From Leisingera sp. ANG-M7 (lineage in GTDB: Bacteria > Pseudomonadota > Alphaproteobacteria > Rhodobacterales > Rhodobacteraceae): a DNA stretch of 64,000 bases. Positions 1,634 through 22,866 of this stretch are shown piece by piece. The stretch is taken from positions 248,001 through 312,000 of the forward strand of contig NZ_JWLI01000007.1 in NCBI RefSeq assembly GCF_000813965.1. Reading direction: 5' to 3'. Numbering within the stretch: the first letter of the stretch is position 1; the number at the start of each line of letters is the position of its first letter. The notes under the pieces were generated by a model, which saw only the letters and a list, made by a program, of their open reading frames with translations, ran no database searches and was not told the DNA's origin. Position numbers and translations under genes: made by a program.

Positions 1634-1903
1634 CTAGTTCCGAAAGGCCCAGACGCGGGCGTCCCGTTTCAGCATTGCCTGTTCAGCGGCATCCAACCGT
1701 GCCACGGCTGCAGCGGGATCGCGCCTGCCGCCCGCCTTGGTCCAGAGCCTGAGCGCTGACGCCGGACTCCAGGGCAGGCACGCGTCCGCCAGCCACTGCC
1801 GCAGGGTCGGCGGCAAGGCATCGTAGGCCTGCATCGGATCCCCTGCCCTGCGCCGCCGTTTCAGGCGGGAGTTCAGATTGCGGCGCGCGCGGCGGTCAGC
1901 CAT
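1634..1903 (-). CDS. DUF6525 family protein
   Basis: 89 residues, starting at the ATG at 1901-1903, eight bases inside the end of the upstream zigA-like gene, so the two are translationally coupled. It is strongly basic at the N-terminus ([16 protein letters not shown]). The segment around 'YDALPP.LRQWLA...LPWSP.S' matches a small conserved family of Rhodobacteraceae (DUF6525) of unknown function. No membrane segment or catalytic motif is visible. A longer start at 1960 would extend the overlap and adds no conserved sequence. Confidence 0.65.
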
Positions 1904-3098
1904 TGCGGCGCCAGCTTGGGAAGGGGTCGTCCAGGGCGGCCCAGGCCGGGTCGAAGCCATTCACCGTTTCCGGCATCAGGCAGGCGTCCAACCGTGCGGT
2001 GACTGCTGCCTTGTCGAGGCCTGTACCAATGAACACCAGCTCCTGCCGCCGGTCACCCCAGGTTTCGTCCCAGTTCTGCAGGAATTCGCGCCGGGCCTCA
2101 GAGTGAGACGGCCAGCGCTCCGTTGGCACCGCCGCCCACCAGAGACCCAACGGGCGGACGGAGGAAATCGCCCCGGCCAGCGAGAACTCCGCAGCCAATT
2201 CGGGGCGGGTGGCCAGCCAGAAATGCCCTTTGGCCCGGATCACTCCGGGCAGATCGCCATTCAGAACTGCGTGGATCTTGGCGGGGTCAAAGGGGCGCTT
2301 GGCCCGGTAGACGAAAGAGGAAATCCCGTATTCCTCGGTTTCCGGCACATGGTGGTCGAAGCCATAAAGCTCTTTGGCCCAAAGGGGATGCTCATGAGCC
2401 TTGTCAAAATCGAAACGGCCAGTGTCGAAGATGCGGTCTCCGTCAACTTCGGAGTAATCGGCGTGGATCACCTCGCCATCCGGGTTCAGCGCTTTGATGA
2501 CCGCCATTGCCGCGGAAGTCTGGTCCGGTCCTGCGTCTGTTACCTTGTTCAGGATGATGACATCAGCGAATTCGATCTGGTCGGTCAGCAAGTTGACCAG
2601 GGTGCGGTCGTCCTCCGCGCCCAGGCTTTCGCCGCGGTCGCTGAGGAAATCATGGCTGGCGAAATCCCGCAGCAGGTTCACGGCATCAACCACCGTGACC
2701 ATAGTGTCCAGCCGCGCCACATCCGAGAGGCTGGCGCCCTGCTCATCCCGGAAATCAAAGGTCGCGGCGACCGGCAGCGGTTCCGCAATGCCGGTGCTTT
2801 CGATCAGCAGATAGTCAAAGCGCCTCTCGCCGGCGAGGCGGCGCACCTCCTGCAGCAGGTCGTCTCGCAGCGTGCAGCAGATGCAGCCATTGGTCATTTC
2901 CACCAGCTTCTCGTCCTGGCGCGACAGTTCCGTTCCGCCGCGCACCAGGTCCGCGTCGATGTTCACCTCGCTCATGTCGTTGACGATTACCGCCACCCGG
3001 CGGCCAGCGCGGTTGTTCAGAACGTGATTCAAAAGCGTGGTCTTGCCCGCCCCGAGGAAGCCCGAGAGCACAGTTACTGGCAGCCTATTATCCATCAT
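1896..3098 (-). CDS. zigA: COG0523 GTPase, ZigA-like zinc metallochaperone
   Basis: 400 residues. The P-loop GFLGAGKTT (residues 13-21) is followed by '[10 protein letters not shown]' and the metal-binding CICC motif (72-75), the CxCC signature of COG0523 GTPases. The C-terminal CobW domain follows. ZigA-type members deliver zinc to client proteins under zinc limitation. Two ATGs lie at 3096-3098 and 3093-3095. I chose 3098 because GGA lies 7 bases ahead of it and because the ATG at 3110 would begin almost inside the Zur-type palindrome at 3112-3126. The DUF6525 gene overlaps its 3' end. Zinc as the metal is inferred from the operator and the close family match. Confidence 0.85.
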
Positions 3099-3111
3099 AC
3101 GCGAGTCCATA

Positions 3112-3305: not shown

Positions 3306-4151
3306 TCAATCCAATCCGGCGGGCAATTCAGCTGTGATCCAATCGCGAAAAGCCTCTGCGGCTGCGCTCGGGCGGTCCTTCAGCTGCAACCAATAGGCCC
3401 GTTTGGGTGCTGCCACATCGGCATCAGCGGCGAGAAGCCGTCCGGTCTGCAGCTCTGCGCGGACAAGAAAGGAAGGGCACAGGGTCCAGCCGAGACCATC
3501 TGCGGCCAGGCTGACTGCGGCGTGCACGCTGTCGACTTCAAGGGGTTGGCGGATCGTGCAGGCAGCGAAACGCGGTGACTTCAGCCACTCCTCGAACAAG
3601 CTTTCCTGGCCGCTGATACGGATTACGGGAAGCGGCGCTTCTTCGGCGCAGCCCGGTGCACGAACCGCGATAAGGCTGCACTTCACGAGTGCCCTGGCAG
3701 GTGCCGGCTGAACCGGGCCGCCGAGGTAGATCTCCGCATCCGGGTCGTACCCGTGCCGCTCCGGCCGCCAGAGGGCGGTGCGGGTTTCCACTTGGATCCC
3801 GGGATGACGGGCATGAAACCCCGGCAGATTGGGGATCAGCCAGCGCAGGGCGAAACTGGCGTTGCAAAGGATCCGCAGGCGGCTGCCCTGCGGCTGCCGG
3901 TAGCGTTTCAGCGCGTTGGAGATCTGCTCCAGCCCCGGAAAGACGTCGCTGTAAAGCTGCGCACCGGAAGCGGTGAGCGACATCCCGCGCGGCTCGCGGA
4001 TGAACAGCTGCAGTTTCAGGTGGGTTTCCAGCGCTTGCATCTGCTGGCTGAGGGCGGCCTGAGTCAGCCCGGCCTCCTGGGCGGCCAGTGTCATATTGCC
4101 GAGCCGGGCCACGGCTTCGAAGTTGTGCAGCCACTTCAGAGGGGTCGACAT
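3306..4151 (-). CDS. LysR-family transcriptional regulator
   Basis: 281 residues. The N-terminal LysR helix-turn-helix (about 5-65: 'FEAVARLGN.TLAAQEAGLTQAALSQQ...LE..L...LF.R') is followed by a substrate-binding domain of GcvA type. It is divergent from the sulfatase gene at 4278, with 126 bases between the starts. Regulation of that sulfatase is likely; the inducer is unknown. A palindrome at 4159-4174 adjoins its own start and would fit autoregulation. Confidence 0.88.
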   Translation of the reverse strand: MSTPLKWLHNFEAVARLGNMTLAAQEAGLTQAALSQQMQALETHLKLQLFIREPRGMSLTASGAQLYSDVFPGLEQISNALKRYRQPQGSRLRILCNASFALRWLIPNLPGFHARHPGIQVETRTALWRPERHGYDPDAEIYLGGPVQPAPARALVKCSLIAVRAPGCAEEAPLPVIRISGQESLFEEWLKSPRFAACTIRQPLEVDSVHAAVSLAADGLGWTLCPSFLVRAELQTGRLLAADADVAAPKRAYWLQLKDRPSAAAEAFRDWITAELPAGLD

Positions 4152-4174: not shown

Positions 4175-4277
4175 ACTTCATTGCAATTTTATCTATTGGA
4201 TTGCCGCGCGGATTTCCAGAACACTGCGGCCTGCCCGCCTGGCCATTGCGGCTGTGGCGGCTGGATGGGAGGTCCTG

Positions 4278-5744
4278 ATGAGCAAACAGCCGAATTTCCT
4301 GGTCATTATTTCCGACGAGCACCGCAAGGATGCGATGGGCTGTGCCGGGCATCCGATTGTGAAAACGCCAAACCTGGACGCGCTGGCGGCGCGCGGCACG
4401 ATGTTCACCGCGGCCTATACGCCGTCGCCCATGTGCGTGCCGACCCGGGCGGCGCTGGCCACCGGCGATTGGGTGCACAAGACCGGCCACTGGGACAGTG
4501 CCACACCCTACAGCGGCAGCCCGCGCAGCTGGATGCACGCCCTGCGGGACGCGGGCCGCGAGGTCGTGTCGATCGGCAAACTGCATTTCCGTTCCGCCGG
4601 GGATGACAACGGGTTTACCGAGGAAATCCTGCCGATGCATGTGGTCGGAGGCGTCGGCTGGGCCATCGGCCTGCTGCGGGAAAACCCGCCGCCTTATGAC
4701 TCTGCAGCAGAACTGGCCGGCGACGTTGGGGCGGGCAGCAGCACCTATACCGACTATGACCTGGCGATCACCAAGGCAGCCGAAGCCTGGCTGGCCGACC
4801 CCAAGCGCCAGCAGCAGCCTTGGGCGGCCTTTGTGTCGCTGGTCAGCCCACATTACCCGCTGACCTGCCCTGACGAATGGTACAGCCTGTACGATCCCGC
4901 AGAAATGGACTTGCCTGTGGGCTATGGCGAGGGGCTGCCGGAGCACGAGGAACTGCGCAACATCGCGGCCTTCTTCAACTACGATGACTATTTCGACGAA
5001 CAGACGATGCGCGAGGCAAAGGCGGCCTATTATGGGCTGACGTCGTTCATGGATGATTGCGTGGGCCGGGTATTCAAGGCACTGGAGGCCAGCAGCCAAT
5101 TGGAAAACACGGTGATCCTGTATGTGTCGGATCACGGCGACATGATGGGGGATCAAGGATTCTGGACCAAGCAGGTGATGTACGAGCAATCCGCAGGGGT
5201 GCCGATGATCGCCGCCGGGCCAGGCATTCCAGCGGGGCAGCAGGTGGCGACCTGCACCAGCCTGACTGACATCGCCGCCACTGCGCGTGAGGTCTGCGCC
5301 GCGGGGGAAGCCCCGGAATTGCCAGGCGTGTCGCTTCGCGCGGTTGCGAATGCGCCTTATGACGAGGCCCGCACCGGGTTCAGCGAATACCATGACGGCG
5401 GGTCAAAAACCGGCGCCTTCATGGTGCGATGGGGCAAGTGGAAGTACGTCCACTATGCCGGGATGCAGCCGCAGCTGTTTGATCTGGAAGCAGATCCGAA
5501 TGAGCAGGTGAACCGGGCGAAGGACGGGGTGAATGATCCGGAGATCAAGGCCGCTCTGGCCGAGGGCGAGCGGCGGCTGCGGGCAATTTGCGACCCGGAG
5601 GAGGTGAACGCCCGCGCCTTTGCTGATCAGCGCCGCAGGATCGCGGAGCTTGGCGGCGAGGAGGCCTGCCGCACGGCCTATGTGTTCAACCACACACCGA
5701 CGCCGGACGAGCAGGACAGGATGCGCGAAGGTTCACCGCTGTAG
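4278..5744 (+). CDS. Type I sulfatase family hydrolase
   Basis: 488 residues, ATG at 4278 with GGAGG five bases before. It belongs to the formylglycine-dependent sulfatase / alkaline phosphatase superfamily. The modification motif C-x-P-x-R is present as CVPTR (C53), with downstream GKLHF (K101, H103) and the metal-binding SDHGD (284-288). N-terminal D13 precedes, as expected for the first metal ligand. There is no signal peptide, so it acts in the cytoplasm. The neighbouring LysR regulator suggests induction by a sulfate ester, but the substrate is open. It lacks the C-terminal 'ESKRYPR'-type segment of choline sulfatase, so I do not call it betC. A phosphonate monoester hydrolase role is also possible. 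Confidence 0.82.
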   Translation: MSKQPNFLVIISDEHRKDAMGCAGHPIVKTPNLDALAARGTMFTAAYTPSPMCVPTRAALATGDWVHKTGHWDSATPYSGSPRSWMHALRDAGREVVSIGKLHFRSAGDDNGFTEEILPMHVVGGVGWAIGLLRENPPPYDSAAELAGDVGAGSSTYTDYDLAITKAAEAWLADPKRQQQPWAAFVSLVSPHYPLTCPDEWYSLYDPAEMDLPVGYGEGLPEHEELRNIAAFFNYDDYFDEQTMREAKAAYYGLTSFMDDCVGRVFKALEASSQLENTVILYVSDHGDMMGDQGFWTKQVMYEQSAGVPMIAAGPGIPAGQQVATCTSLTDIAATAREVCAAGEAPELPGVSLRAVANAPYDEARTGFSEYHDGGSKTGAFMVRWGKWKYVHYAGMQPQLFDLEADPNEQVNRAKDGVNDPEIKAALAEGERRLRAICDPEEVNARAFADQRRRIAELGGEEACRTAYVFNHTPTPDEQDRMREGSPL

Positions 5745-5797: not shown

Positions 5798-6190
5798 ATG
5801 ACATTGGAAGAGGCAATTGCAACCCAGCCGGTATGGGTGCAGATCTGGGTCAACATTCTGTTTCTGGGCGCCTTTGTGCTGCCGCTGGCGTTGCTGATCT
5901 GGAAGCCCAGCCGCCTGGCGGGACTGGTGACAGTGGCTGCGAGCGTGCTGGCGGCAGGCGGGGTCTACTGGCTCTACGGGCAGCTGGGATATGTGCGTCT
6001 CTTGGGGCTGCCCCATGTGTTCCTGTGGACGCCGCTGGTGGTCTGGCTATGGCGGCAGCGGATGCGGGTGGATATGCCGGTCTGGCCGCAGCGGATCATC
6101 CTGCTGATCTGCGCGGTGATCGCGGTTTCGCTGGCGTTTGATTACCTGGACGTCGCCCGCTACCTGCTGGGGGAGCGGCAGCCGTTCTGA
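5798..6190 (+). CDS. Small four-helix membrane protein of unknown function
   Basis: 130 residues, ATG with GGGAG upstream. Four hydrophobic segments are visible at about 17-37, 42-62, 68-88 and 100-118, separated by short polar or arginine-rich turns (RQRMR near 86-91). I do not recognise a family. It follows the sulfatase by 53 bases on the same strand and may be cotranscribed. An AT-rich hairpin ends the unit before the convergent dehalogenase gene. Confidence 0.65.
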   Translation: MTLEEAIATQPVWVQIWVNILFLGAFVLPLALLIWKPSRLAGLVTVAASVLAAGGVYWLYGQLGYVRLLGLPHVFLWTPLVVWLWRQRMRVDMPVWPQRIILLICAVIAVSLAFDYLDVARYLLGERQPF

Positions 6191-6212
6191 CCCGCCACCG
6201 CCCCGCGAACAA

Positions 6213-6257
6213 AGTTTTCAACAAAACTCTTGGCAATTTTCTTTAACAAGAAAATTG
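6213..6257. terminator. AT-rich hairpins between convergent genes
   Basis: Two inverted repeats lie between the convergent membrane-protein and dehalogenase genes. A 6-bp stem (6213-6218 with 6223-6228) is followed by a perfect 10-bp stem CAATTTTCTT/AAGAAAATTG (6234-6243 with 6248-6257, loop TAAC). T-runs on both strands suit a bidirectional terminator. Confidence 0.6.
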
Positions 6258-6280
6258 TGCCGCGCCTTCCGGCCAGCGGT

Positions 6281-9200
6281 TCAGAGATCGATTTCCAGAA
6301 CCCCATCCGGCGCCTGCGCGCGGGACTGGCAAAGAATGATGGCGCCCTCGCGCTGCTTGTTCGACAGCACGAAATCGCGGTGTTCCGCCTCCCCCGCGAT
6401 CAGCCCGCATTTGCAGACGCCGCAAATCCCGTCGGAGCATTTCACATCCACGTGGATGCCGCTTTCGGTCAGCGCCTCGGCCGCGGTTTTTTCGCCTGGC
6501 ACCAGGATCTCGCGGCCCGATTTCGCAAGCTTCAGGATGAAGGGATGGTTCTCGTATTCGGGCTGTTCGGGAACCGTGAAATACTCCATGTGGCGGGCGT
6601 CTTCGGGGAAGCCATTTGCTTCGGCCGCACCCAGCACCGCTTGCATATATGCCTCCGGTCCGCAGGTATAGACATGGCTGCCGGGGGTGTACTTCAGAAC
6701 CTCCCGAAAGTCCGCACGGGTGCCTTGGTCGGAGAAATGCAGTTGCACTTTATCGACCCAGGCAACCGTTTCCAGATCGCCAATGAACCCCGCGCCTGTC
6801 TTTTCCGAACATGAGTAACGGAATTCGAAGTCCCGGCCCAAGGCGTGCAGATGGTGGGCCATGGCGATCATCGGAGTCACCCCGATGCCGCCGCCCATCA
6901 AATAGGATTTGGCGGCATCCTCCACCAGCGGGAAGTGATTGATCGGCTTGGAGATGAACACCATGCGGCCTTCCTCGAAGATCCGGTGCATCAGCCTTGA
7001 GCCGCCGCGGCCCGTGTCCTCGCGCAGCACCGCGATCTGGTATTTTGAGCGGTCCGCCGGGTCTCCTGACAGTGAGTACTGGCGAAAGAACTCCGGCGCA
7101 ACGACCACGTCGATATGGGCACCCGCTGTTGCCGGCGGCAGAGGGGAACCGTCCGGCAGAGAGAACTCATACTTGGTGACGGCCTTCGTCATGTGCTCGA
7201 CCTTCGACAGACGCACGCGCATCACTGGGGCGTCGCCCTGATCTGCGGTATAGACATGCTCCGGCGGCAGGCCCTGCGCGCGGCGGCGCTTGTGCTCCGC
7301 TGCCGGGATCATCGCCTGATAGGCAGCGATACCGGCCTCGCGGTCCATCGGCGCAGGCCAGGCATAGGGCGGCGGCGCCAGCGGTGCGGGGTAGACCGCC
7401 AGGGTCTGATCCTCGAACTTCAGGTCCAGGTCCTTGGACAGCTTACGGGCGTTTACCGGATGCTGTGGGGGCGCATAGGGCCCTTCCTCCACCATCTCCA
7501 GATCCCACCACCATTTCTTGGCGGTGTTGACCTCGCCATGGCCCAGCGCGTCATCGAGTTTCGCCAGCAGAGGCGCGCTGCCCGGCACATTCATCGCGGC
7601 CCAGCGGAACGGCGCCTCTGCAAACAGCCCCTCCAGGTTCCAGGGGCAGGTTTTCATGCAGCGGCCGCACATGGCACCGCCAGGCACGGTGACCCTGTAG
7701 GTGGTGCATTTCTGGCTGTCGGACTTCCAGATCTCGTAGCCGTTGAACATCAGCTTGGGGCCTGCAGTGATGGCGCCGGAGGGGCATTCGCGGGCACATT
7801 TGTTGCAAGCCTCGCAGAACCGCTGCAGGCCGAAGTCGACCGGCTTGTCATGCGTCATCGGCAGGTTTGTCGTCACCGCACCGGACTTCAGCCGGGGGCC
7901 TAGGAAGGGGTTCAGGATCACCTCGCCGATGCGGGAGACCTCGCCCAGGCCCGAGAGCAGCAGCAAAGGCGGCTGCAGCACCTCGCCATCCATCACTGAA
8001 TGCACCCGGGCGGTATAGCCGAGATTGCGGATCTGCTGCGCGATGACCCCGCCCAGCAGCGAGAACCGCAGGTAGGCACGCATCGACTGGGCGCAGGCGA
8101 TCCAGTCGTCGCCCGAGGCACCGTCCATGGTTTCGTGACCCTGGTCGATGATCATGCTGATGGCGTTTTCGTGGTACGGAGCCAGCGGCGCACCCGCTGC
8201 GTCGTGCGAGTAATAGGCCCAGTCCGGGCAGCGCGAGATGCCCACCGCATCGCTGCCGAGGAAATAGGCGGCGGCCTTGATGCTGGCAGCATTGCGGGCG
8301 GCGTCCGCAGCGGAAGGGTCGATCTGCGGCGCGGCCTGCCCGTCCTGCAGCAGGACAAAGGCCGCCAGCGACGAGCGGAAGGCAAAGGCTGAAGAAGACT
8401 TGCGGACGTAGTTGCCATTCTTGGCAGCCTCTTGCGGGCCCTTGCCCATGTCGCCGAACAGCGCACGGGCGAACATGTCGGTGCGCTTGGGCACGCGGGC
8501 GACGTTTGCCTCGTCGATATAGGTCGTTGGATCTGCCACGCGCTTGAGCGTTTCAAACGGGTGCGGGCCGTCCATGAAGCGGCGCTTGGCATAGGGGTCG
8601 CGGCTGGCAGCGCTTTTGGCGTGGCTACCAAGGCCCAGCCGGTGTTTAAGGCCCGGCGCCTGCCCCGGCACCAGCGGCAGATCGGCGGCCAGTTCCAGGG
8701 TGGTGGTGACGGCGGCGATGCCGAAGCGATTGCCAAGGAACGGGTTTGTCAGCACGCCATCCTCGCAGGTGGCAAGCCCCGCCTGCACCGCCAGCTGGCC
8801 CAGATGCACATCACTGGCGGCACCGGTATGCGCGCGCGCCTCCCACCCCAGCAGGCGGATGTAGTTGGCAAGTGTCACCACGGTTTCCGCCGCGCGCAGG
8901 CAGGCGCGCTGGTCCTGAGCATCCGCCAGCCAATCGGCGCCATCTTCCTCAGCCTCGGGATCACGGGGGAACTCGTAAATAAAGACCAGAGCGTGCGTGT
9001 GATGCCGGCAGTCCGCGGGCGGGGCCTGCATCGCCTCGCGCAGGTTCGCCATCACCACGTCGATGCCGGAGGCAAAGGTATTGGTCTGCTTGCTGCGCAG
9101 CGTCTCAGCCAGCGATGCAACATCCGGGTTCACCAGCGGCGCGTCCAGCCAGGCGTCAGAGGGTACCGCGCAGGCACCTGCCAGAGAAGCGTCGCAGAAG

Positions 9201-9478
9201 TAGCCGAAGGCCTTCAGATGATCCGTGCGCTCCTGCGGGTCGACAGGGATTTCAGCGCGTTCCCTTTTCACCAGCCCCTCGCGGGTGGCGTCCAGCATCG
9301 CCTGGTAGTCGCGCATGGCGTTGACGATGGAGAGCGGTGCATCGGGGCGCCGGAAGCTGACCTGCGCCAGCGGCGGTAGCGCGTTCAGCCCCTCAGGGGC
9401 CGCCTGCCGTGCAAGGATCTCCATCGGGTACGGCCCCAGATGCACAGGCCGGTTGCGGTAGGAAAACAGTTTGCCCAT
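6281..9478 (-). CDS. rdhA: Self-sufficient reductive dehalogenase: RdhA fused to a flavin/2Fe-2S reductase
   Basis: 1,065 residues with a GGGG ribosome-binding site. Residues 1 to about 690 form a cobalamin-dependent reductive dehalogenase module. It ends with two bacterial 4Fe-4S motifs: C555-x2-C558-x2-C561-x3-C565P, and C591 with C604-x2-C607-x3-C611P. There is no Tat signal, so it should be cytoplasmic, as in catabolic aerobic dehalogenases. Residues about 750-1065 form a phthalate-dioxygenase-reductase-type module: RQYS (799-802, flavin), GGGIGVTP (862-869) and CGP (939-941, pyridine nucleotide), and plant-type 2Fe-2S cysteines C1014, C1019, C1022 and C1050. The same architecture is known from BhbA of Comamonas, which removes bromine from hydroxybenzoates using NAD(P)H. 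Halophenolic substrates are inferred. It is cotranscribed with the marR gene 16 bases upstream. Confidence 0.9.
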   Translation of the reverse strand: MGKLFSYRNRPVHLGPYPMEILARQAAPEGLNALPPLAQVSFRRPDAPLSIVNAMRDYQAMLDATREGLVKRERAEIPVDPQERTDHLKAFGYFCDASLAGACAVPSDAWLDAPLVNPDVASLAETLRSKQTNTFASGIDVVMANLREAMQAPPADCRHHTHALVFIYEFPRDPEAEEDGADWLADAQDQRACLRAAETVVTLANYIRLLGWEARAHTGAASDVHLGQLAVQAGLATCEDGVLTNPFLGNRFGIAAVTTTLELAADLPLVPGQAPGLKHRLGLGSHAKSAASRDPYAKRRFMDGPHPFETLKRVADPTTYIDEANVARVPKRTDMFARALFGDMGKGPQEAAKNGNYVRKSSSAFAFRSSLAAFVLLQDGQAAPQIDPSAADAARNAASIKAAAYFLGSDAVGISRCPDWAYYSHDAAGAPLAPYHENAISMIIDQGHETMDGASGDDWIACAQSMRAYLRFSLLGGVIAQQIRNLGYTARVHSVMDGEVLQPPLLLLSGLGEVSRIGEVILNPFLGPRLKSGAVTTNLPMTHDKPVDFGLQRFCEACNKCARECPSGAITAGPKLMFNGYEIWKSDSQKCTTYRVTVPGGAMCGRCMKTCPWNLEGLFAEAPFRWAAMNVPGSAPLLAKLDDALGHGEVNTAKKWWWDLEMVEEGPYAPPQHPVNARKLSKDLDLKFEDQTLAVYPAPLAPPPYAWPAPMDREAGIAAYQAMIPAAEHKRRRAQGLPPEHVYTADQGDAPVMRVRLSKVEHMTKAVTKYEFSLPDGSPLPPATAGAHIDVVVAPEFFRQYSLSGDPADRSKYQIAVLREDTGRGGSRLMHRIFEEGRMVFISKPINHFPLVEDAAKSYLMGGGIGVTPMIAMAHHLHALGRDFEFRYSCSEKTGAGFIGDLETVAWVDKVQLHFSDQGTRADFREVLKYTPGSHVYTCGPEAYMQAVLGAAEANGFPEDARHMEYFTVPEQPEYENHPFILKLAKSGREILVPGEKTAAEALTESGIHVDVKCSDGICGVCKCGLIAGEAEHRDFVLSNKQREGAIILCQSRAQAPDGVLEIDL

Positions 9479-9947: not shown

Positions 9948-9952
9948 GATAA

Positions 9953-9965
9953 TTGACAGTGTCAA
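9953..9965. promoter_or_regulatory. MarR-type operator
   Basis: TTGACA-G-TGTCAA is a perfect 6-bp inverted repeat around one base, with AT-rich flanks that are partly symmetric. It begins five bases upstream of the marR start codon, where bound repressor would block the marR-rdhA transcript. Confidence 0.65.
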
Positions 9966-10115
9966 CTATATGTCCGCCGAAAGCCAGCGAATTCTGCACA
10001 TGCCCTCTTGGCGGCAGCTTCGGACGGACGTAACGCGATCTGCGCCCTTGCGCGGGCGTTGCATCATCGCAGGCAGCCTGTATCGTCAAATCAGGCATGC
10101 TCCCAGGAGAACAGC

Positions 10116-16662: not shown

Positions 16663-17145
16663 TCACACCTTGGCGGCCTGAACAACCAGCAAAAGCATCA
16701 GCGCCAGGGAAATGGCCGCCCCCATCGGCATTTTCCCTGGCGTCTGAAGCGAGGCCCAATACCGCCAAGCGGCAGCGGCCTCAATCCGGCCCAGCACAGT
16801 CAATGCAAGGGGCACGGTGAGCATTGCGGCGCTGAAGCTCCACCCAAAGACCACCAGCGCGGAGGACGGCACAAACAGTATCGCCAGCGCCATCATCTTG
16901 ACGTCCCCCCCCGCCAACGCCCGCCCGCAGAACAACGCAAAGCACAGGACAAAAACGATGCTGGCTGCTAGCAGGCGCAACCCGGTTTCCGCCAGCGGCA
17001 GCAGCGGCGCGGACAGCAGAAAAACCGCAGCCAATCCCAGCATCAGCCGGTTGGGTATCCGAAGGTGCCGCAGATCCCCAGCGGCGGCCAGAACCAGAAC
17101 CGGCGTGGCCGCAGCCAGCGGCAGGAGATCTACCCCTCCCGTCAT
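16663..17145 (-). CDS. cpaA: CpaA/TadV prepilin peptidase (A24 family)
   Basis: 160 residues, mostly membrane-embedded, with about five to six hydrophobic segments. The two catalytic aspartates of A24 peptidases are present: D24 in 'GDLRHLRIPN' and D81 in 'AGGDVKMM' (a GxGD-type motif). It cleaves and possibly methylates the Flp prepilin at the inner membrane. Its start overlaps the stop of the LuxR-type gene by four bases (ATGA), an unusual coupling of regulator and peptidase. Confidence 0.88.
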   Translation of the reverse strand: MTGGVDLLPLAAATPVLVLAAAGDLRHLRIPNRLMLGLAAVFLLSAPLLPLAETGLRLLAASIVFVLCFALFCGRALAGGDVKMMALAILFVPSSALVVFGWSFSAAMLTVPLALTVLGRIEAAAAWRYWASLQTPGKMPMGAAISLALMLLLVVQAAKV

Positions 17146-17981
17146 GCGGCCGAATTGCGCCGCGGCACCTGCCCTGAGAAGCTATCGACCGAAACCAGCC
17201 GGTAAACCAGCTCGCTCATGTTGCCGGTCTGCGTCTTGGCGTAGATGTTGCGCAGATGTGTGCGCAGCGTCGATTTCGAGATCCCAAGGTCCGTTTGCAC
17301 CCGCTTGGCTGTCTGCCCTTTGCTCAACAGAACACAAACGCGGTACTCGGCGCGGCTCAGCTGCGCCGGGTTGTCCATGCTCAACAGATGCGCCTGGACA
17401 CCGGCTCCGCGGGCCGCGCGCCGCTCTGTCAGGCAAGCCTCGGCGTAGAGCCCTGGCGATCGGTTGGTCCATGTCCGCACCAAAGTGCCGGAAATGATGT
17501 TCAGCAGCGCCTGCTGCACCGCACCGGGCCGGGTTGAGAAATGAATCTCCAGGAAATCGGTGTGCTGCTTGCCGGACGACAGCGGGATCACCGCCAGCTC
17601 CACCAGCTTGCGGGACGTATGGAACCGGTCCAGAGCCGGATCCGCCGCTTCATCACTCATGGATTTATACCAGATCGCGCCTGGTTTGGCCTTGTCCAGA
17701 TAACTACCCAGAACCGAGCGGGCAAAGGAGCGCTCCAATGGCAATCCGTTTCCGCCGCCCGCAGCCCTGTCAAAGAAAACTGATCCGGAAGCCCGGCCCT
17801 GGCCGGTCGATACCCTGCAAATTGCAGCTGCTTCCCCCTTCATGGCCGCCGCCAGTCCGCTCAACGCGTCCCTGAAAGGCGCACAGCCGTGCAAACACTC
17901 ACACCAGCGCGCAATTGGCGCTATCATTCCGGCCTCAGCAGCCCGAATGGTGTGGGTGTCAAAAAGCGCATTGGTCCCCAT
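17142..17981 (-). CDS. LuxR-type (GerE) transcriptional regulator of the pilus locus
   Basis: 279 residues from ATG at 17981. An earlier in-frame TTG at 18002 is not preferred. The C-terminal 65 residues form a LuxR/GerE helix-turn-helix: 'LSRAEYRVCVLLSKGQTAKRV', then 'LGISKSTLRTHLRNIYAKT'. The N-terminal 200 residues match no domain I can name and lack the autoinducer-binding signature. It is separated from tadC by 250 bases and overlaps cpaA, so it may control pilus genes. The binding target and signal are unknown. Confidence 0.78.
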   Translation of the reverse strand: MGTNALFDTHTIRAAEAGMIAPIARWCECLHGCAPFRDALSGLAAAMKGEAAAICRVSTGQGRASGSVFFDRAAGGGNGLPLERSFARSVLGSYLDKAKPGAIWYKSMSDEAADPALDRFHTSRKLVELAVIPLSSGKQHTDFLEIHFSTRPGAVQQALLNIISGTLVRTWTNRSPGLYAEACLTERRAARGAGVQAHLLSMDNPAQLSRAEYRVCVLLSKGQTAKRVQTDLGISKSTLRTHLRNIYAKTQTGNMSELVYRLVSVDSFSGQVPRRNSAA

Positions 17982-18099
17982 AACGCGCGTCCCCCACAGC
18001 AATATTAACTTTTAACATAGCGCTTTTAGTAACTTAGCAAGCGCCCGCACCAATCAACTCCCTATTGTGTCCCCTCATGCTGGCCGGTTCACTCAATTG

Positions 18100-18115
18100 C
18101 GTCAAGAATTTGACG
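18100..18115. promoter_or_regulatory. Inverted repeat upstream of the luxR-type gene
   Basis: CGTCAA-GAAT-TTGACG, 6-bp arms with a 4-base spacer, about 120 bases upstream of the luxR-type start in the 250-base gap after tadC. It is a possible operator. No regulator can be assigned from sequence. Confidence 0.35.
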
Positions 18116-18231
18116 AAAATTGCGGGCAGCTGCGCAAATTTACAATTTAGAGGCGATTCATTCAGTCTTTTGAACGTGTTTTACTGAACCAATTGCAGCC
18201 AAAAACAGCAATTGTCCAAGCTGATTTCGAA

Positions 18232-19233
18232 TCAGTTTGCAATGAAACGGACATAACGGATTACGACCGGGCCAATGGTGATCATGATCAGCGCAGGCAG
18301 CATCAGGGAGGCCAAAACCGCCGACATCTTGACCGGCAGCTTGCTGGCCATTTCCTGCGCACGCATTTCCCGCTGGTTGCGCAGATCTTCGGAATATGTG
18401 GCCAGCGCCGACGCCATGCTGGTGCCGAACTGCATTGACTGCAGGGCCACATTGGCAAACGACCGGACCGTCTCGACACCGGTGCGCCCGGCCATATCGA
18501 GCAGCGCATCCTGCCGCGCACGGCCCGCCTGGATCTGCCGCTGCACGCTGAGCAGCTCAAAAGCCAGATCCGGCGAAACCTGGGCCAGCTCGTTGCCGAC
18601 CCGGGTCATGGCGGCGTCGAAGCCCAGCCCGGAATCCACCGAAATGCGCATCAGGTCCAGCGCGTTGGGAAAAGCGTCCTCAATCCGGCGGCGGCGGGCA
18701 GCAGCGCGGGCGTTCAGCACGTAAACCGGGCCGAAGAAACCCGCCCCCACCAGCCCGCTCAGCACCTGAAACACCTGAATGTTGGTCCACCCCGCCACCT
18801 GCGCGGTGACCGGATTGGGCGGCAGCAGGCCCGGTGTCTTAACGGCGGCGATGACCAGCAACAGCACACCCGGCAGCGCCAGCCCCAGCAATACCCGGAT
18901 CAGAGTGAAAGTGCGCAGCGCACCGGCTTGCGAGAACCCGGCCTGTGAGAGCTTATTCTCCAGTTCTGAGCGTTCCGTCAGGCTGGCAGGAACAAAGGCT
19001 TTCATCAGCCCGCCAGGCTGGTCAGCAGGCGCCTTCAGCAATGCCAGATCGCGGGACTGGCGGCGGCGGGTTTCGCCCAGTGACGACAGCCGCGCCGCAG
19101 CGGGCGATTTCCGGGCCAGGCTGGCGGCAGCACCGAAATAGAGCAGCAGCACCGCCGCAGCCACAGCGGCGGCAGCCAATGCGCCGGGGGCCAGCCCGGT
19201 TTGCGTCAAGAATCCTGTTACGAACGTATCCAT
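18232..19233 (-). CDS. tadC: TadC pilus-assembly membrane protein
   Basis: 333 residues of the type II secretion F (GspF) family. There is a hydrophobic N-terminal segment (about 18-36), further membrane segments near 115-140 and 155-175 and at the C-terminus, and the cytoplasmic GspF domain around 180-310 ('[18 protein letters not shown]'). It forms the inner-membrane platform of the Tad machine together with TadB, whose gene ends 15 bases upstream. It is the last gene of the main pilus operon. Confidence 0.88.
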
Positions 19234-19248
19234 GGCAGATCTCCCCGG

Positions 19249-20241
19249 TCAGATCCTGAAGTTGACAAGTTTGCGCAGCATCAGCGCGTTCAGCACAGTC
19301 AGCACGGCAATTCCCCCCATCATCGGCCGGAACAGCGGATCTTCCGCCACGCCCGCGTAATAGTCCGGCGTCAGCACCGAAACGGTGGCAAAAATCACCA
19401 GCGGCAGCGCCGACAGCATCCAGGCGGTCAGCCGCCCCTCGGAGGCCAGCGCATGCACCTTGCGGCGCAGGGCAATCCGGCCGCGAATGACCCGCGACAG
19501 GGTTTCCAGCATCACCGACAGGTCGCTGCCGGTGCCGTGCTGGATGCTGATGCTGGCGGCCAGGTACTGAGCGTCTTCCAGCCCGGTCCGGTCCGCGAAT
19601 TCCTGCACCGCATCCGGCAAATCGTCACCATAGGTCACCTGGTCATAGATGATGCCCAGCTCGGTGCCTGCCGGGTCCGGCATTTCGCGGGCAGCGATGC
19701 CGATCGAGTTGTTCAGCGGATGGCCCACTTTGAGACCGCGTGCCAGCATCTCCAGCGCGTCCGGCAACTGGTGCATCAGCTTATCCATTTTCTTGCGCTG
19801 CTGGCTGAGCAGCAGCGCAAACGGCACGCCAAAACCGCCAATGACCCCGATCACAATTCCCTGACGCAATCCCGCATATCCCGCCGCCGCCACCGACATA
19901 AGCACCGTCAGCACGCAGCAGCCAAGCCAGAACAGGCCCGGACTCAGCGGCACATCCGCCTGGCGCAGGATCTGCGGCAGTTCCCCTGCAACGGGAATGC
20001 GCTGCCAGCCGGTCCGCTGCTGCGTCGGCTTGAGGATGGCGAGACGTTCAGTGCCATTGCGCCCCTGCGCGATCATCCGCATGCGGCGGCTGCGGGTGGC
20101 CGCCGAACGGCCCTTGCGGCCCAGCACCTGGCGCAGCCCGGACATAAGCAGCAGCAGGCCGACTGCAATGCCGCAATAGACCGCGTAGCCCCCCAGTTGG
20201 CCGTTCCAGCTGTGCATTTCGTTCATGAGATCCTTCAGCAT
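19249..20241 (-). CDS. tadB: TadB pilus-assembly membrane protein
   Basis: 330 residues, GspF family, with a membrane segment at about 18-36, a central hydrophobic pair near 100-145 and a C-terminal pair. The cytoplasmic domain carries '[18 protein letters not shown]'. It pairs with TadC as the platform that the CpaF ATPase acts on. Its start shares one base with the cpaF stop, consistent with tight coupling. Confidence 0.88.
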
Positions 20242-21632
20242 CAGGCGCCCTCCGGCTGGAACATATTGCCGTCAAAGCCCACACCCGCAGCTTCCAGCAG
20301 GGCTGCGCACTGCGGCCGGATGCCGGTCGGGATGAACTCGCCTGCGATGCCGCCATCGGCGGTCTTCCCCATCCGGCGGAACACAAAGATGTCCTGCATG
20401 GTGATCACTTCACCCTCCAGGCCAGTGAGCTCGGAGATGCTGATAACCCTGCGCTGCCCGTCCGACAGGCGGGCCAGCTGCACGATGATCTGCAGGCCCG
20501 AGGCGATCTGCGCCCGGATTGCCGCCAGCGGCAGCTCCATTCCCATCATCGAGACCATCTGCTCAATCCGGCCCAGCGCGTCGCGGGCGGAATTGGCGTG
20601 CACCGTGGTCATCGAACCGTCGTGGCCGGTGTTCATCGCCTGCAGCATGTCGAAGGTCTCGGCGCCGCGCACCTCGCCAACGATGATCCGGTCGGGCCGC
20701 ATCCGCAGGGCGTTGCGCACAAGATCGCGCTGGCTGACAGCACCGCCGCCCGACGGGTTGGGCGGGCGGGTTTCGAGCCGCACCACATGGGCCTGCTGAA
20801 GCTGCAGCTCCGCCGCGTCCTCAATGGTGACAATCCGCGAGCGCGGGTCGATACCAGCGGAAATCGCATTCAGCATCGTGGTCTTGCCGGAACCGGTGCC
20901 GCCGGAGATCAGGATGTTGACGCGCGCCTCAACCAGCGCCTGCAGAAAGGCCGCCGCGCGACCATTCAGCGCGTTACCGGCCACCAGTTTCTCCATCGTC
21001 AGCGGGTCGCGGGCGAACTTGCGGATCGACAGCGAAGGACCGTCGATGGCACAGGGCCGGATGATAGCATTGACCCGGCTGCCATCCTCCAGCCGCGCAT
21101 CCACCCAGGGGTTGCTCTCATCCACCCGGCGCCCGACGCGCGAGACCACCTTGTCGATAATCCGTAACAAGTGTTTTTCGTCCCGGAACCGCACGCCGGT
21201 CTGCTCCAGCACACCGCTGCGTTCAACAAAGACCGTCTGATGGCCATTGACCAGAATGTCATTGATGCCGGGATCCGCCAGCAGGGGCTCCAACGGGCCA
21301 AGCCCCAGCACCTCGTCGATCAGCTCATCCACCAGGCGGCGGAATTCATCGGCGCGCAGCGGATTATTCTCCTCGGCCAGCACATCGCTCACCAGCGCCG
21401 CCACCTCGCGGCGCAGCTCCTCCGGCTCGACCTTATCGATCACTGCCAGGTTCAGCCGGTCGATCACCGCCTCGTGCATCCGGCTTTTCAGCTCCAGAAA
21501 GGCCGCCAGCTTGCGGATTTCCCCGCTGGTGTCCGCCTCTGCTGCAGGCGGCTGCGCGCCCGCCTCCGGCCACAGCGGCACCACCGTGTCCGGGGCGGCA
21601 TCTTCTGTTCGCTTGCCAAAATTCCTGAACAT
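20241..21632 (-). CDS. cpaF: CpaF/TadA secretion ATPase
   Basis: 463 residues, ATG at 21632. Hexameric type II/IV secretion ATPase with Walker A GGTGSGKT (244-251), an Asp box near '[12 protein letters not shown]', and Walker B/His box residues in the following 120 residues ('[15 protein letters not shown]', '[14 protein letters not shown]'). It powers Flp pilus polymerisation on the cytoplasmic face. The cpaE stop lies one base before its start, and a longer start at 21674 would overlap cpaE. Confidence 0.93.
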
Positions 21633-21633
21633 A

Positions 21634-22866
21634 TCAAACCGCCTTTCCGTGCTGAGGCTGCGCCGCGGCGGCACGGGCCTTTCTTGTTTCGATCAAGTCC
21701 CGGGACAGCCGCCGGATCGCCTTGGCAAGGCTGGAACGCCCCGCCGCTGCCGATAGCGGCACCCCCCGGTCAACCGCCGCAGAAGCTGCCGAGGGATCGT
21801 TGGGCAGCCAGTATTTGAACGGCTTTTGCAGCAGCTTGGAGGCTTCCTTGTGATGGCTCGCAGCGACAATCGGCTTGCGTTCGCGGCTGATCACGATGTC
21901 GGTCTGCAGGCTCATGCTGGCCTCGGCGTAGAAATCCAGAAGCCGCCGCGCCTGGGTGATGGCAGGCACTGAACTGCCAGTCACCATCAGCAGCCGCTCG
22001 CTGGCTTCCAGAACCGGCGTCAGCCACTCCGCCAACGCCCGCGGCAGGCCGATCACCACGAAATCGAACTGCTGGCGCAGATGCGCAACCAGCGCCTGCA
22101 CCTGTTCCGGCTTCAGCGCATGAAGCGGGGCGATCTCCGCCGGGGCAGCCAGCACCCACAGGCCGAGGGCCGCCTCGCTCATCGATTGCTCGGCAAAGAC
22201 ATCGTCGGGAACGAACCCCTCGCTTGCCAGTTCGTACAGGCAGCGGTTCGGCGGCAGGTCGAGGAAGCTGCCGACGGCACCGAACTGCAGATCCAGGTCC
22301 AGGAGGGCAACCTTGAACTCCGCCTCCTGCCGCCTCAGGCCGCGGCGCCGGGTCAGGCAGTCCGCCAGGTTCACTGCCAGCGTCGTAGCTCCCGCGCCGC
22401 CGCAGGACTGGCTGACCGCAACCACCATTCCCTCGCGGCTGCCGCGGGTGCTGACGCCGGCTAAGGGCTGCGGTTCCTCAGCTTTCAGGCACTTACGGAT
22501 CGCGGCGGACATCTCATCGGCAGAAGCGGTTTCCGGCAGGACATCCTGTACCCCGGCCTCTGTCAGCAGCCGCAGATCTGCAAACGGCATGCTGGTATCC
22601 GCCAGGGCCAAGATCCGCGCCGTGCCGCCGGTGTGACGCAGCATCTCCTTCACCGCTGCGGCATCAGTGGCCGCTTCCGCCCCGGCGCGAAAGATGATCA
22701 GGTCGTTATCCTTGGCCAGCTGCAGCGCGGTGCCGTTGATTTCGCTGAGCGCAGACGCGCATTTCTTCACCCCGGTTCCGGGCTGGAACTGCGCCACGCT
22801 GGCCACCAGGGCACAGACAGCCGGATCCTTTGAGATGACCACGATGGATTGTGTTTCAGCCTGCAT
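21634..22866 (-). CDS. cpaE: CpaE/TadZ pilus localisation protein
   Basis: 410 residues. An N-terminal receiver-like domain (about 6-120) without a clear phosphorylation pocket precedes a MinD/ParA-type ATPase domain. The P-loop is atypical (SCGGAGATT instead of KGGxGKT), and 'VALLDLDLQFG' gives the Walker B region. This domain order and the deviant loop are typical of TadZ/CpaE, which places the pilus machine at the pole. It lies between the TadE-like genes and cpaF in the same operon. Confidence 0.88.
   Translation of the reverse strand: MQAETQSIVVISKDPAVCALVASVAQFQPGTGVKKCASALSEINGTALQLAKDNDLIIFRAGAEAATDAAAVKEMLRHTGGTARILALADTSMPFADLRLLTEAGVQDVLPETASADEMSAAIRKCLKAEEPQPLAGVSTRGSREGMVVAVSQSCGGAGATTLAVNLADCLTRRRGLRRQEAEFKVALLDLDLQFGAVGSFLDLPPNRCLYELASEGFVPDDVFAEQSMSEAALGLWVLAAPAEIAPLHALKPEQVQALVAHLRQQFDFVVIGLPRALAEWLTPVLEASERLLMVTGSSVPAITQARRLLDFYAEASMSLQTDIVISRERKPIVAASHHKEASKLLQKPFKYWLPNDPSAASAAVDRGVPLSAAAGRSSLAKAIRRLSRDLIETRKARAAAAQPQHGKAV

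Follow-up and report, generated by a model that had tools for sequence, protein, structure and literature searches.

A probable self-sufficient catabolic reductive dehalogenase, paired with a MarR-type regulator gene, in Leisingera sp. ANG-M7

When a single gene encodes both a vitamin B12-type dehalogenase and what appears to be its own electron supply, does it specify an enzyme that works unaided in the cytoplasm, which compounds might it act on, and how might it be controlled? The question is raised by a gene for a 1065-amino-acid (aa) protein in a 64,000-nucleotide (nt) stretch of the Leisingera sp. ANG-M7 genome (contig NZ_JWLI01000007.1, positions 248,001 to 312,000; hereafter the window, in whose coordinates we report unless another locus is named). 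We consider it very probable that the product is a cytoplasmic, self-sufficient catabolic reductive dehalogenase (RdhA) of the BhbA/JtRdhA type, with predicted MarR-repressed expression. BhbA and JtRdhA have been published as self-sufficient, and JtRdhA, from a marine relative, as NADPH-driven and oxygen-tolerant (PMC10463259), so the window protein is a further member of a characterized subfamily. The original prediction rightly pointed to BhbA as a precedent, but underrated prior knowledge, in that the biochemistry of JtRdhA had already been described.

The assignment is carried by profile, sequence, and structure matches. The TIGR02486 "reductive dehalogenase" profile scores 204.4 bits (cut-off 160.35) over two stretches of the protein. 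NpRdhA (4ras) matches residues 3–108 and 156–734 with an E value of 4.6e-161, and phthalate dioxygenase reductase (2pia) matches residues 752–1062 with an E value of 1.7e-58. In the predicted structure, NpRdhA covers model residues 3–737, and the flavin, pyridine-nucleotide, and 2Fe-2S domains of 2pia align with residues 749–1065. The two TIGR02486 stretches and the NpRdhA alignment indicate that the duplicated, vestigial N-terminal cobalamin-type domain is present. The N-terminus itself aligns with that of NpRdhA, and residues 106–116 and 121–152 are stretches that NpRdhA lacks. Both 4Fe-4S motifs of the TIGR02486 family, CXXCXXCXXXCP (555–566) and CXXCXXXCP (604–612), are found, along with C591, and the eight cluster cysteines do not vary in any of the 85 aligned rows (the alignment comprises the window protein, 84 of the 85 homologs fetched, L072 being left out, and NpRdhA). 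The reductase part has RQYSL (799–803), GGIGVTP (863–869), and CGP (939–941) motifs as well as four 2Fe-2S cysteines. The original prediction of one chain with a B12-type core, two 4Fe-4S motifs, and a complete flavin/NAD(P)H/2Fe-2S reductase therefore stands. Inspection for the motif (no signal-peptide predictor was used) found no twin arginine in residues 1–40, in line with the predicted lack of a Tat signal, and a respiratory RdhA was rejected on this basis. A gene on the opposite strand was also rejected: plus-strand frame 1 is broken, and the longest frames that this strand has within the gene reach 315 and 262 aa.

Table 1. Coordinates of the dehalogenase gene, its parts, and associated features (window positions, except where a locus is named)
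Feature	Position	Strand	Remarks
Fused (self-sufficient) catabolic reductive dehalogenase gene, rdhA (predicted)	6281..9478, stop included	minus	1065 aa, ATG start
N-terminal domain, residues 1–320 (limit approximate)	8519..9478	minus	Aligns with vestigial cobalamin-like duplication of NpRdhA
Catalytic cobalamin core, residues 330–660 (limits approximate)	7499..8491	minus	F336, S465, M466, Y469, K531, R595
First 4Fe-4S motif, CEACNKCARECP, residues 555–566	7781..7816	minus	Alignment
Second 4Fe-4S site, C591 with C604/C607/C611	7643..7708	minus	Open reading frame translation, alignment
Flavin/NAD(P)H/2Fe-2S module, phthalate-dioxygenase-reductase-like, residues 750–1065	6284..7231	minus	Sequence and structure matches, motifs
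2Fe-2S motif C-x4-C-x2-C...C, residues 1014–1050 (Cys 1014/1019/1022/1050)	6329..6439	minus	Alignment
Hairpin, 10-base-pair stem, 23 nt past the rdhA stop	6234..6257	minus	Possible transcript end
MarR-family regulator gene, 150 aa	9495..9947	minus	Co-directional with rdhA, ends 16 base pairs upstream of it
21-base-pair palindrome ATAATTGACAGTGTCAACTAT	9949..9969		Immediately precedes the marR start codon; putative MarR operator
Second, unfused reductive dehalogenase, 395 aa	L003 1360-2547, contig C57	minus	Flanked by LysR and pirin genes

NpRdhA residues F291, S422, M423, Y426, K488, and R552 correspond to F336, S465, M466, Y469, K531, and R595, and all six are identical in the 85 rows; their roles are taken from work on NpRdhA (PMC7565698) and JtRdhA (PMC10463259). 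The window protein thus keeps the polar side of the pocket known from NpRdhA. Five residues have been named for its hydrophobic side (M423, F290, F310, P311, and A419), and N452 is reported to shift on ligand binding (PMC7565698); M423 is kept. Ortho-halophenol chemistry is likely, judging by these residues. JtRdhA is active on brominated and iodinated phenols, and because it turned over no chlorinated or fluorinated compound tested (PMC10463259), the "organohalides" of the original prediction are best restricted, in the first instance, to bromo- and iodophenols.

On the model of the NpRdhA (PMC7565698) and JtRdhA (PMC10463259) work, NAD(P)H would pass a hydride to the flavin of the C-terminal module, from which electrons would travel one by one via the 2Fe-2S cluster and the two 4Fe-4S clusters to base-off cob(II)alamin. 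S465, K531, and R595 would hold an ortho-halogenated phenol, most likely a natural marine bromo- or iodophenol, with its halogen placed on the cobalt. Y469 (with K531) would donate a proton at carbon–halogen cleavage, and halide and dehalogenated phenol would leave, the latter possibly to enter 4-hydroxybenzoate/protocatechuate-type catabolism. We infer activity itself, occupancy by cobalamin and flavin, the use of NADPH rather than NADH, and, as the original prediction did, oxygen tolerance and phenolic substrates.

The second part of the answer concerns control. The gene directly upstream encodes a MarR winged-helix domain (MarR_2, Pfam, 52 bits versus a cut-off of 27; E 7.7e-14). In our genome collection, 223 stretches encode a relative of the fused dehalogenase, and the best 80 were kept as loci; in 36 of these, a MarR gene of the same kind lies within 200 base pairs (bp) upstream on the same strand. 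Shuffled versions of the window contain the palindrome a mean of 0.00 times, and its core, TTGACANTGTCAA, occurs once in the whole 4.58-Mb genome. Allowing up to one mismatch, the core is present within 700 bp upstream of rdhA at 26 of the 36 loci with MarR versus none of the 44 without (Fisher p 3.3e-13), a comparison weakened by the fact that two of the 44 (L037 and L071) cover less than 700 bp upstream, and in none of 180 shuffles. In the loci printed, it lies at, or some tens of bases from, the MarR start codon. It is also found with one mismatch on an Aminobacter plasmid, where rdhA is 59% identical to the window protein. It should be noted that 10 of the 36 MarR loci lack the palindrome even at one mismatch, and that 10 of the 26 palindrome loci are Leisingera-like near-relatives, so there are fewer independent cases, although 16 others share it. 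From this pattern we infer MarR autorepression via the putative operator: the protein would probably sit on the palindrome before its own start, repress marR-rdhA, and be released by a phenolic ligand.

A search of 10 further genomes for the exact core found it in nine, and found the reversed control pattern in one. Four exact sites in other genomes lie away from rdhA, and in the 8.5–9 kb inspected around each, there is no MarR gene of the marR-rdhA type. Halocynthiibacter (L098 4263) and Paenihalocynthiibacter (L099 4261) have a second exact copy that straddles the start of a gene for an MFS transporter, overlapping its first codon. These copies may be real second targets, because the DNA upstream of the transporter genes otherwise aligns poorly even though the genes are orthologous (87% identical). 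In Roseobacter MED193, the distant site precedes a TetR-type gene by 24 nt, and in Ruegeria conchae, it is within an open reading frame; in both organisms, rdhA has no adjoining MarR gene. In the JtRdhA paper (PMC10463259), the only match to "MarR" is the word "marred", and papers that mention both dehalogenase and MarR deal, judging by their titles, mainly with organohalide-respiring bacteria.

How common is the gene, and where does it sit? Among the best 80 of the 223 stretches, the closest relatives are from Leisingera species (up to 93% identity), followed by other Rhodobacterales, which agrees with the marine-type alphaproteobacterium originally predicted from the sequence. A quick tree (with long-branch warnings, and omitting the near-copies L007, L009, L014, and L015) places the window protein within the Leisingera group; the structure alignment included 47 of the 80 loci. 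In a family sample that includes the genome itself, 114 of 295 genomes match at 1e-100, a few partially. The 118 matches listed across these 114 genomes include two with an internal stop, several that are partial, and two genomes with the gene in two pieces. In G099:C4:333239-336423 and G269:C1:2006487-2009686, the homologs read as a pair of overlapping pieces, of which one has an in-frame stop; this could reflect decay, assembly error, or a natural split. In a class sample, 31 of 385 genomes match, nine of them (own included) over nearly the full length. Matches in the other 22 are confined to the dehalogenase part (residues 154–753). Where a match covers the catalytic core only and the frame is of ∼450 aa, the protein is a single-core relative that lacks the vestigial N-terminal domain; those of the class sample are 46%–50% identical to the window protein, and some proteins of this kind are adjacent in pairs (G591). 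That bhbA homologs are widespread in the Roseobacter clade has been published (PMC13101508).

Outside Leisingera, 31 of the 49 loci whose flanks are long enough have rdhA at one and the same site, between a HAD hydrolase gene and PleD/DUF983/NUDIX genes. Neighbor clustering (which included one of the ten Leisingera-like loci) yielded, among the families found, ten that were annotated in the non-Leisingera loci: HAD hydrolase, NUDIX, MTTB-type methyltransferase, PleD-like GGDEF, ECF sigma, DUF983, EF-hand, EamA, haem-NO-binding, and a second GGDEF gene. We rejected these neighbors as dehalogenation-pathway partners and read them as an old chromosomal site. Because the HAD/PleD/DUF983/NUDIX markers are absent from the DNA examined around rdhA in all 10 Leisingera-like loci, the marR-rdhA pair seems to have moved away from that site in Leisingera.

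The genome encodes CobS, a PobA relative (58%), and two Dioxygenase_C (protocatechuate-dioxygenase-type) genes, which makes cobalamin assembly and a 4-hydroxybenzoate/protocatechuate route plausible. It also encodes a second, unfused dehalogenase (Table 1), which scores 174 bits with TIGR02486, has the motifs CDICTKCADACP and CAICMRVCP, and exceeds the cut-off of the Pfam Dehalogenase profile PF13486 at residues 174–269 (25.3 versus 24.3 bits). This protein is very probably an orthologue of Ros_A3X954, with which we compared it through the published description, because its motifs and the limits of its Dehalogenase match are as stated there (PMC13101508). The type is found in 40 of the 295 family genomes, 28 of which hold both dehalogenases, a larger overlap than expected (odds ratio 4.6, p 1.9e-5, or 3.4e-5 without the own genome; the p-values are only a guide because genomes share ancestry). 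Ros_A3X954 loses activity in oxygen (PMC13101508); JtRdhA works in air (PMC10463259). We did not meet this co-occurrence, or the MarR gene with its palindrome, in literature listings, and their novelty is not established.

Beyond the limits on the palindrome given above, several observations have to be set against our reading. PF13486 gives no match to the window protein at E ≤ 0.01 and all flavin- or NAD-binding Pfam domains are under their cut-offs. We count the silence of PF13486 against a dehalogenase, but consider it outweighed, because TIGR02486, NpRdhA, 2pia, and the fold carry the case. The structure model is only fair (mean predicted local distance difference test score, or pLDDT, of 73.1) and without cofactor; it is poor at the iron-sulfur region (562–618), and pLDDT is low also at 500–518. 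The comparison with JtRdhA was made through its published description. Could the protein then be an epoxyqueuosine-reductase-like or inactive relative and no dehalogenase? QueG and RdhA are both class III B12 enzymes (PMC10463259), but the QueG profile TIGR00276 scores only 25.8 bits, far under its cut-off of 200, against 204.4 bits for TIGR02486, so we rejected an epoxyqueuosine reductase. Loss of function is at odds with catalytic and cluster residues that are intact and invariant, and with the rarity of internal stops noted above (only two of the 118 listed matches, apart from the two split genes and several partial ones). We regard either version as scarcely credible.

Another point against our reading is that NpRdhA F290, F310, P311, A419, and N452 are replaced by M335, Y357, V358, C462, and V495 (found in 67, 80, 78, 60, and 82 of the 85 rows, respectively), and that BhbA has F, S, V, S, and A there, four of which differ from the window protein. 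A pocket changed in this way could mean another substrate class, with other halogens or non-phenolic compounds. We judge this quite unlikely, given that the residues for phenol-hydroxyl binding and proton donation are unchanged in every row and that the NpRdhA variant A419M remains active on the same phenols (PMC7565698). Detoxification deserves more weight. By the same chemistry, toxic algal bromophenols would be disarmed, with the dehalogenated phenol not used for growth. The annotated conserved flanking families in roseobacter loci are not ring-cleavage genes, which counts against a catabolic role and for disposal, as do the single exact operator core in the genome, the MFS transporter in the two Halocynthiibacter-lineage genomes, which could be an exporter, and the occurrence of bromophenols in marine algae (PMC3148503). 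However, BhbA and the OM-1 homolog are located with catabolic genes, the PobA relative and protocatechuate-dioxygenase-type genes are encoded elsewhere in the genome, and JtRdhA enabled Escherichia coli W to grow on 3-bromo-4-hydroxyphenylacetate (PMC10463259). Overall, we give detoxification somewhat less than an even chance.

If the catabolic dehalogenase is accepted, the matches in 114 of the 295 family genomes sampled favor the view that marine roseobacters ordinarily possess NAD(P)H-driven B12 dehalogenation, and a marine bromine-releasing step may thus be widespread beyond anaerobic dehalorespirers. Through the conserved MarR gene and palindrome, the natural substrate could be sought directly, as the halophenol that relieves repression, and a bromophenol biosensor might be built on them; the co-occurring second debrominase raises the question of a division of labor. 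A more speculative proposal, which we consider unlikely as a whole, is that marR, rdhA, and one operator form a minimal, movable cassette that senses and disposes of natural bromophenols. MarR would sense the halophenol directly and free the single operon, together with, in certain relatives, the gene for a transporter. One cell would combine an NAD(P)H-driven, oxygen-tolerant route with a separately powered, oxygen-sensitive route through the unfused debrominase, and in Leisingera, a sulfatase would first unmask sulfated algal bromophenols. The sulfatase gene in question (4254–5744, plus strand) is divergent from a LysR gene (3306–4151, minus) and convergent with rdhA, is present in eight of 10 Leisingera-like loci, and falls below the choline-sulfatase cut-off. 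A sulfated bromophenol, lanosol-4,7-disulfate, is reported from a red alga (PMC9322897).

As to an RdhB membrane-anchor gene beside rdhA (no genome-wide search was made), the co-directional gene upstream is MarR, and the next frame downstream (5798–6190) is conserved, on the opposite strand, and without a Pfam match. The stretch around the hairpin (6205–6290) folds with a z of −3.0, and the hairpin is a possible transcript end for rdhA. The CobW-type GTPase at 1896–3110 (minus) scores 595.5 bits against a cut-off of 600 for the zinc metallochaperone ZigA and, despite the nearby B12 enzyme, is by this score better explained as a zinc gene than as a cobalamin gene. At 16663–21674 (minus) are a prepilin peptidase gene, two T2SSF genes, and one T2SSE gene, a type II-like cluster that we take to be of the Tad kind. 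In another genome of the same class (G502), a 1256-aa frame (L102 772-4542, minus) joins an unfused-type dehalogenase to an acyl/aryl-CoA ligase. It matches NpRdhA at residues 7–704 (1.2e-162) and AMP-binding with 212.8 bits, and the ligase half has 4-coumarate and 4-chlorobenzoate CoA ligases among its relatives in the Protein Data Bank. Because the halves are adjoining separate pieces in G668 and G591 (same genus as G502), the joined frame reflects either a natural fusion or the loss of a stop codon. We take it as a hint that CoA-activated aromatic acids are involved in the work of some dehalogenases.

How does the window protein compare with known systems? Phthalate dioxygenase reductase (2pia), a separate reductase serving an oxygenase, has the same three domains as residues 749–1065, which in the window protein are fused to the dehalogenase. 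NpRdhA (Nitratireductor pacificus; 4ras, 6zxx) has no fused reductase, is without most of 106–152, and differs at the five pocket residues. Ros_A3X954 (Roseobacter sp. MED193), a class III B12 debrominase of a roseobacter, belongs to another subfamily, with a single core, no reductase (∼395 aa in the L003 protein), and reported oxygen sensitivity (PMC13101508). BhbA (Comamonas sp. 7D-2 plasmid pBHB, WP_015585978; L086) shares the architecture and the active-site residues of the window protein, to which it is 50.5% identical over 1058 positions, and this bears out the originally noted likeness. However, its gene is carried by a conjugative IncP plasmid, in the company of ring-cleavage genes, with no MarR gene listed nearby in an incompletely annotated stretch, and the pocket differs as described above. 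JtRdhA (Jhaorihella thermophila, WP_104007082), by its published description, shares the duplicated cobalamin domain, the lack of a Tat signal, two 4Fe-4S clusters, a fused phthalate-dioxygenase-reductase-type module, the same six active-site residues, and a marine host. It also has an insert relative to NpRdhA that is specific to fusions (PMC10463259), and the window protein likewise has stretches that NpRdhA lacks. JtRdhA is experimentally active; the activity of the window protein is predicted.

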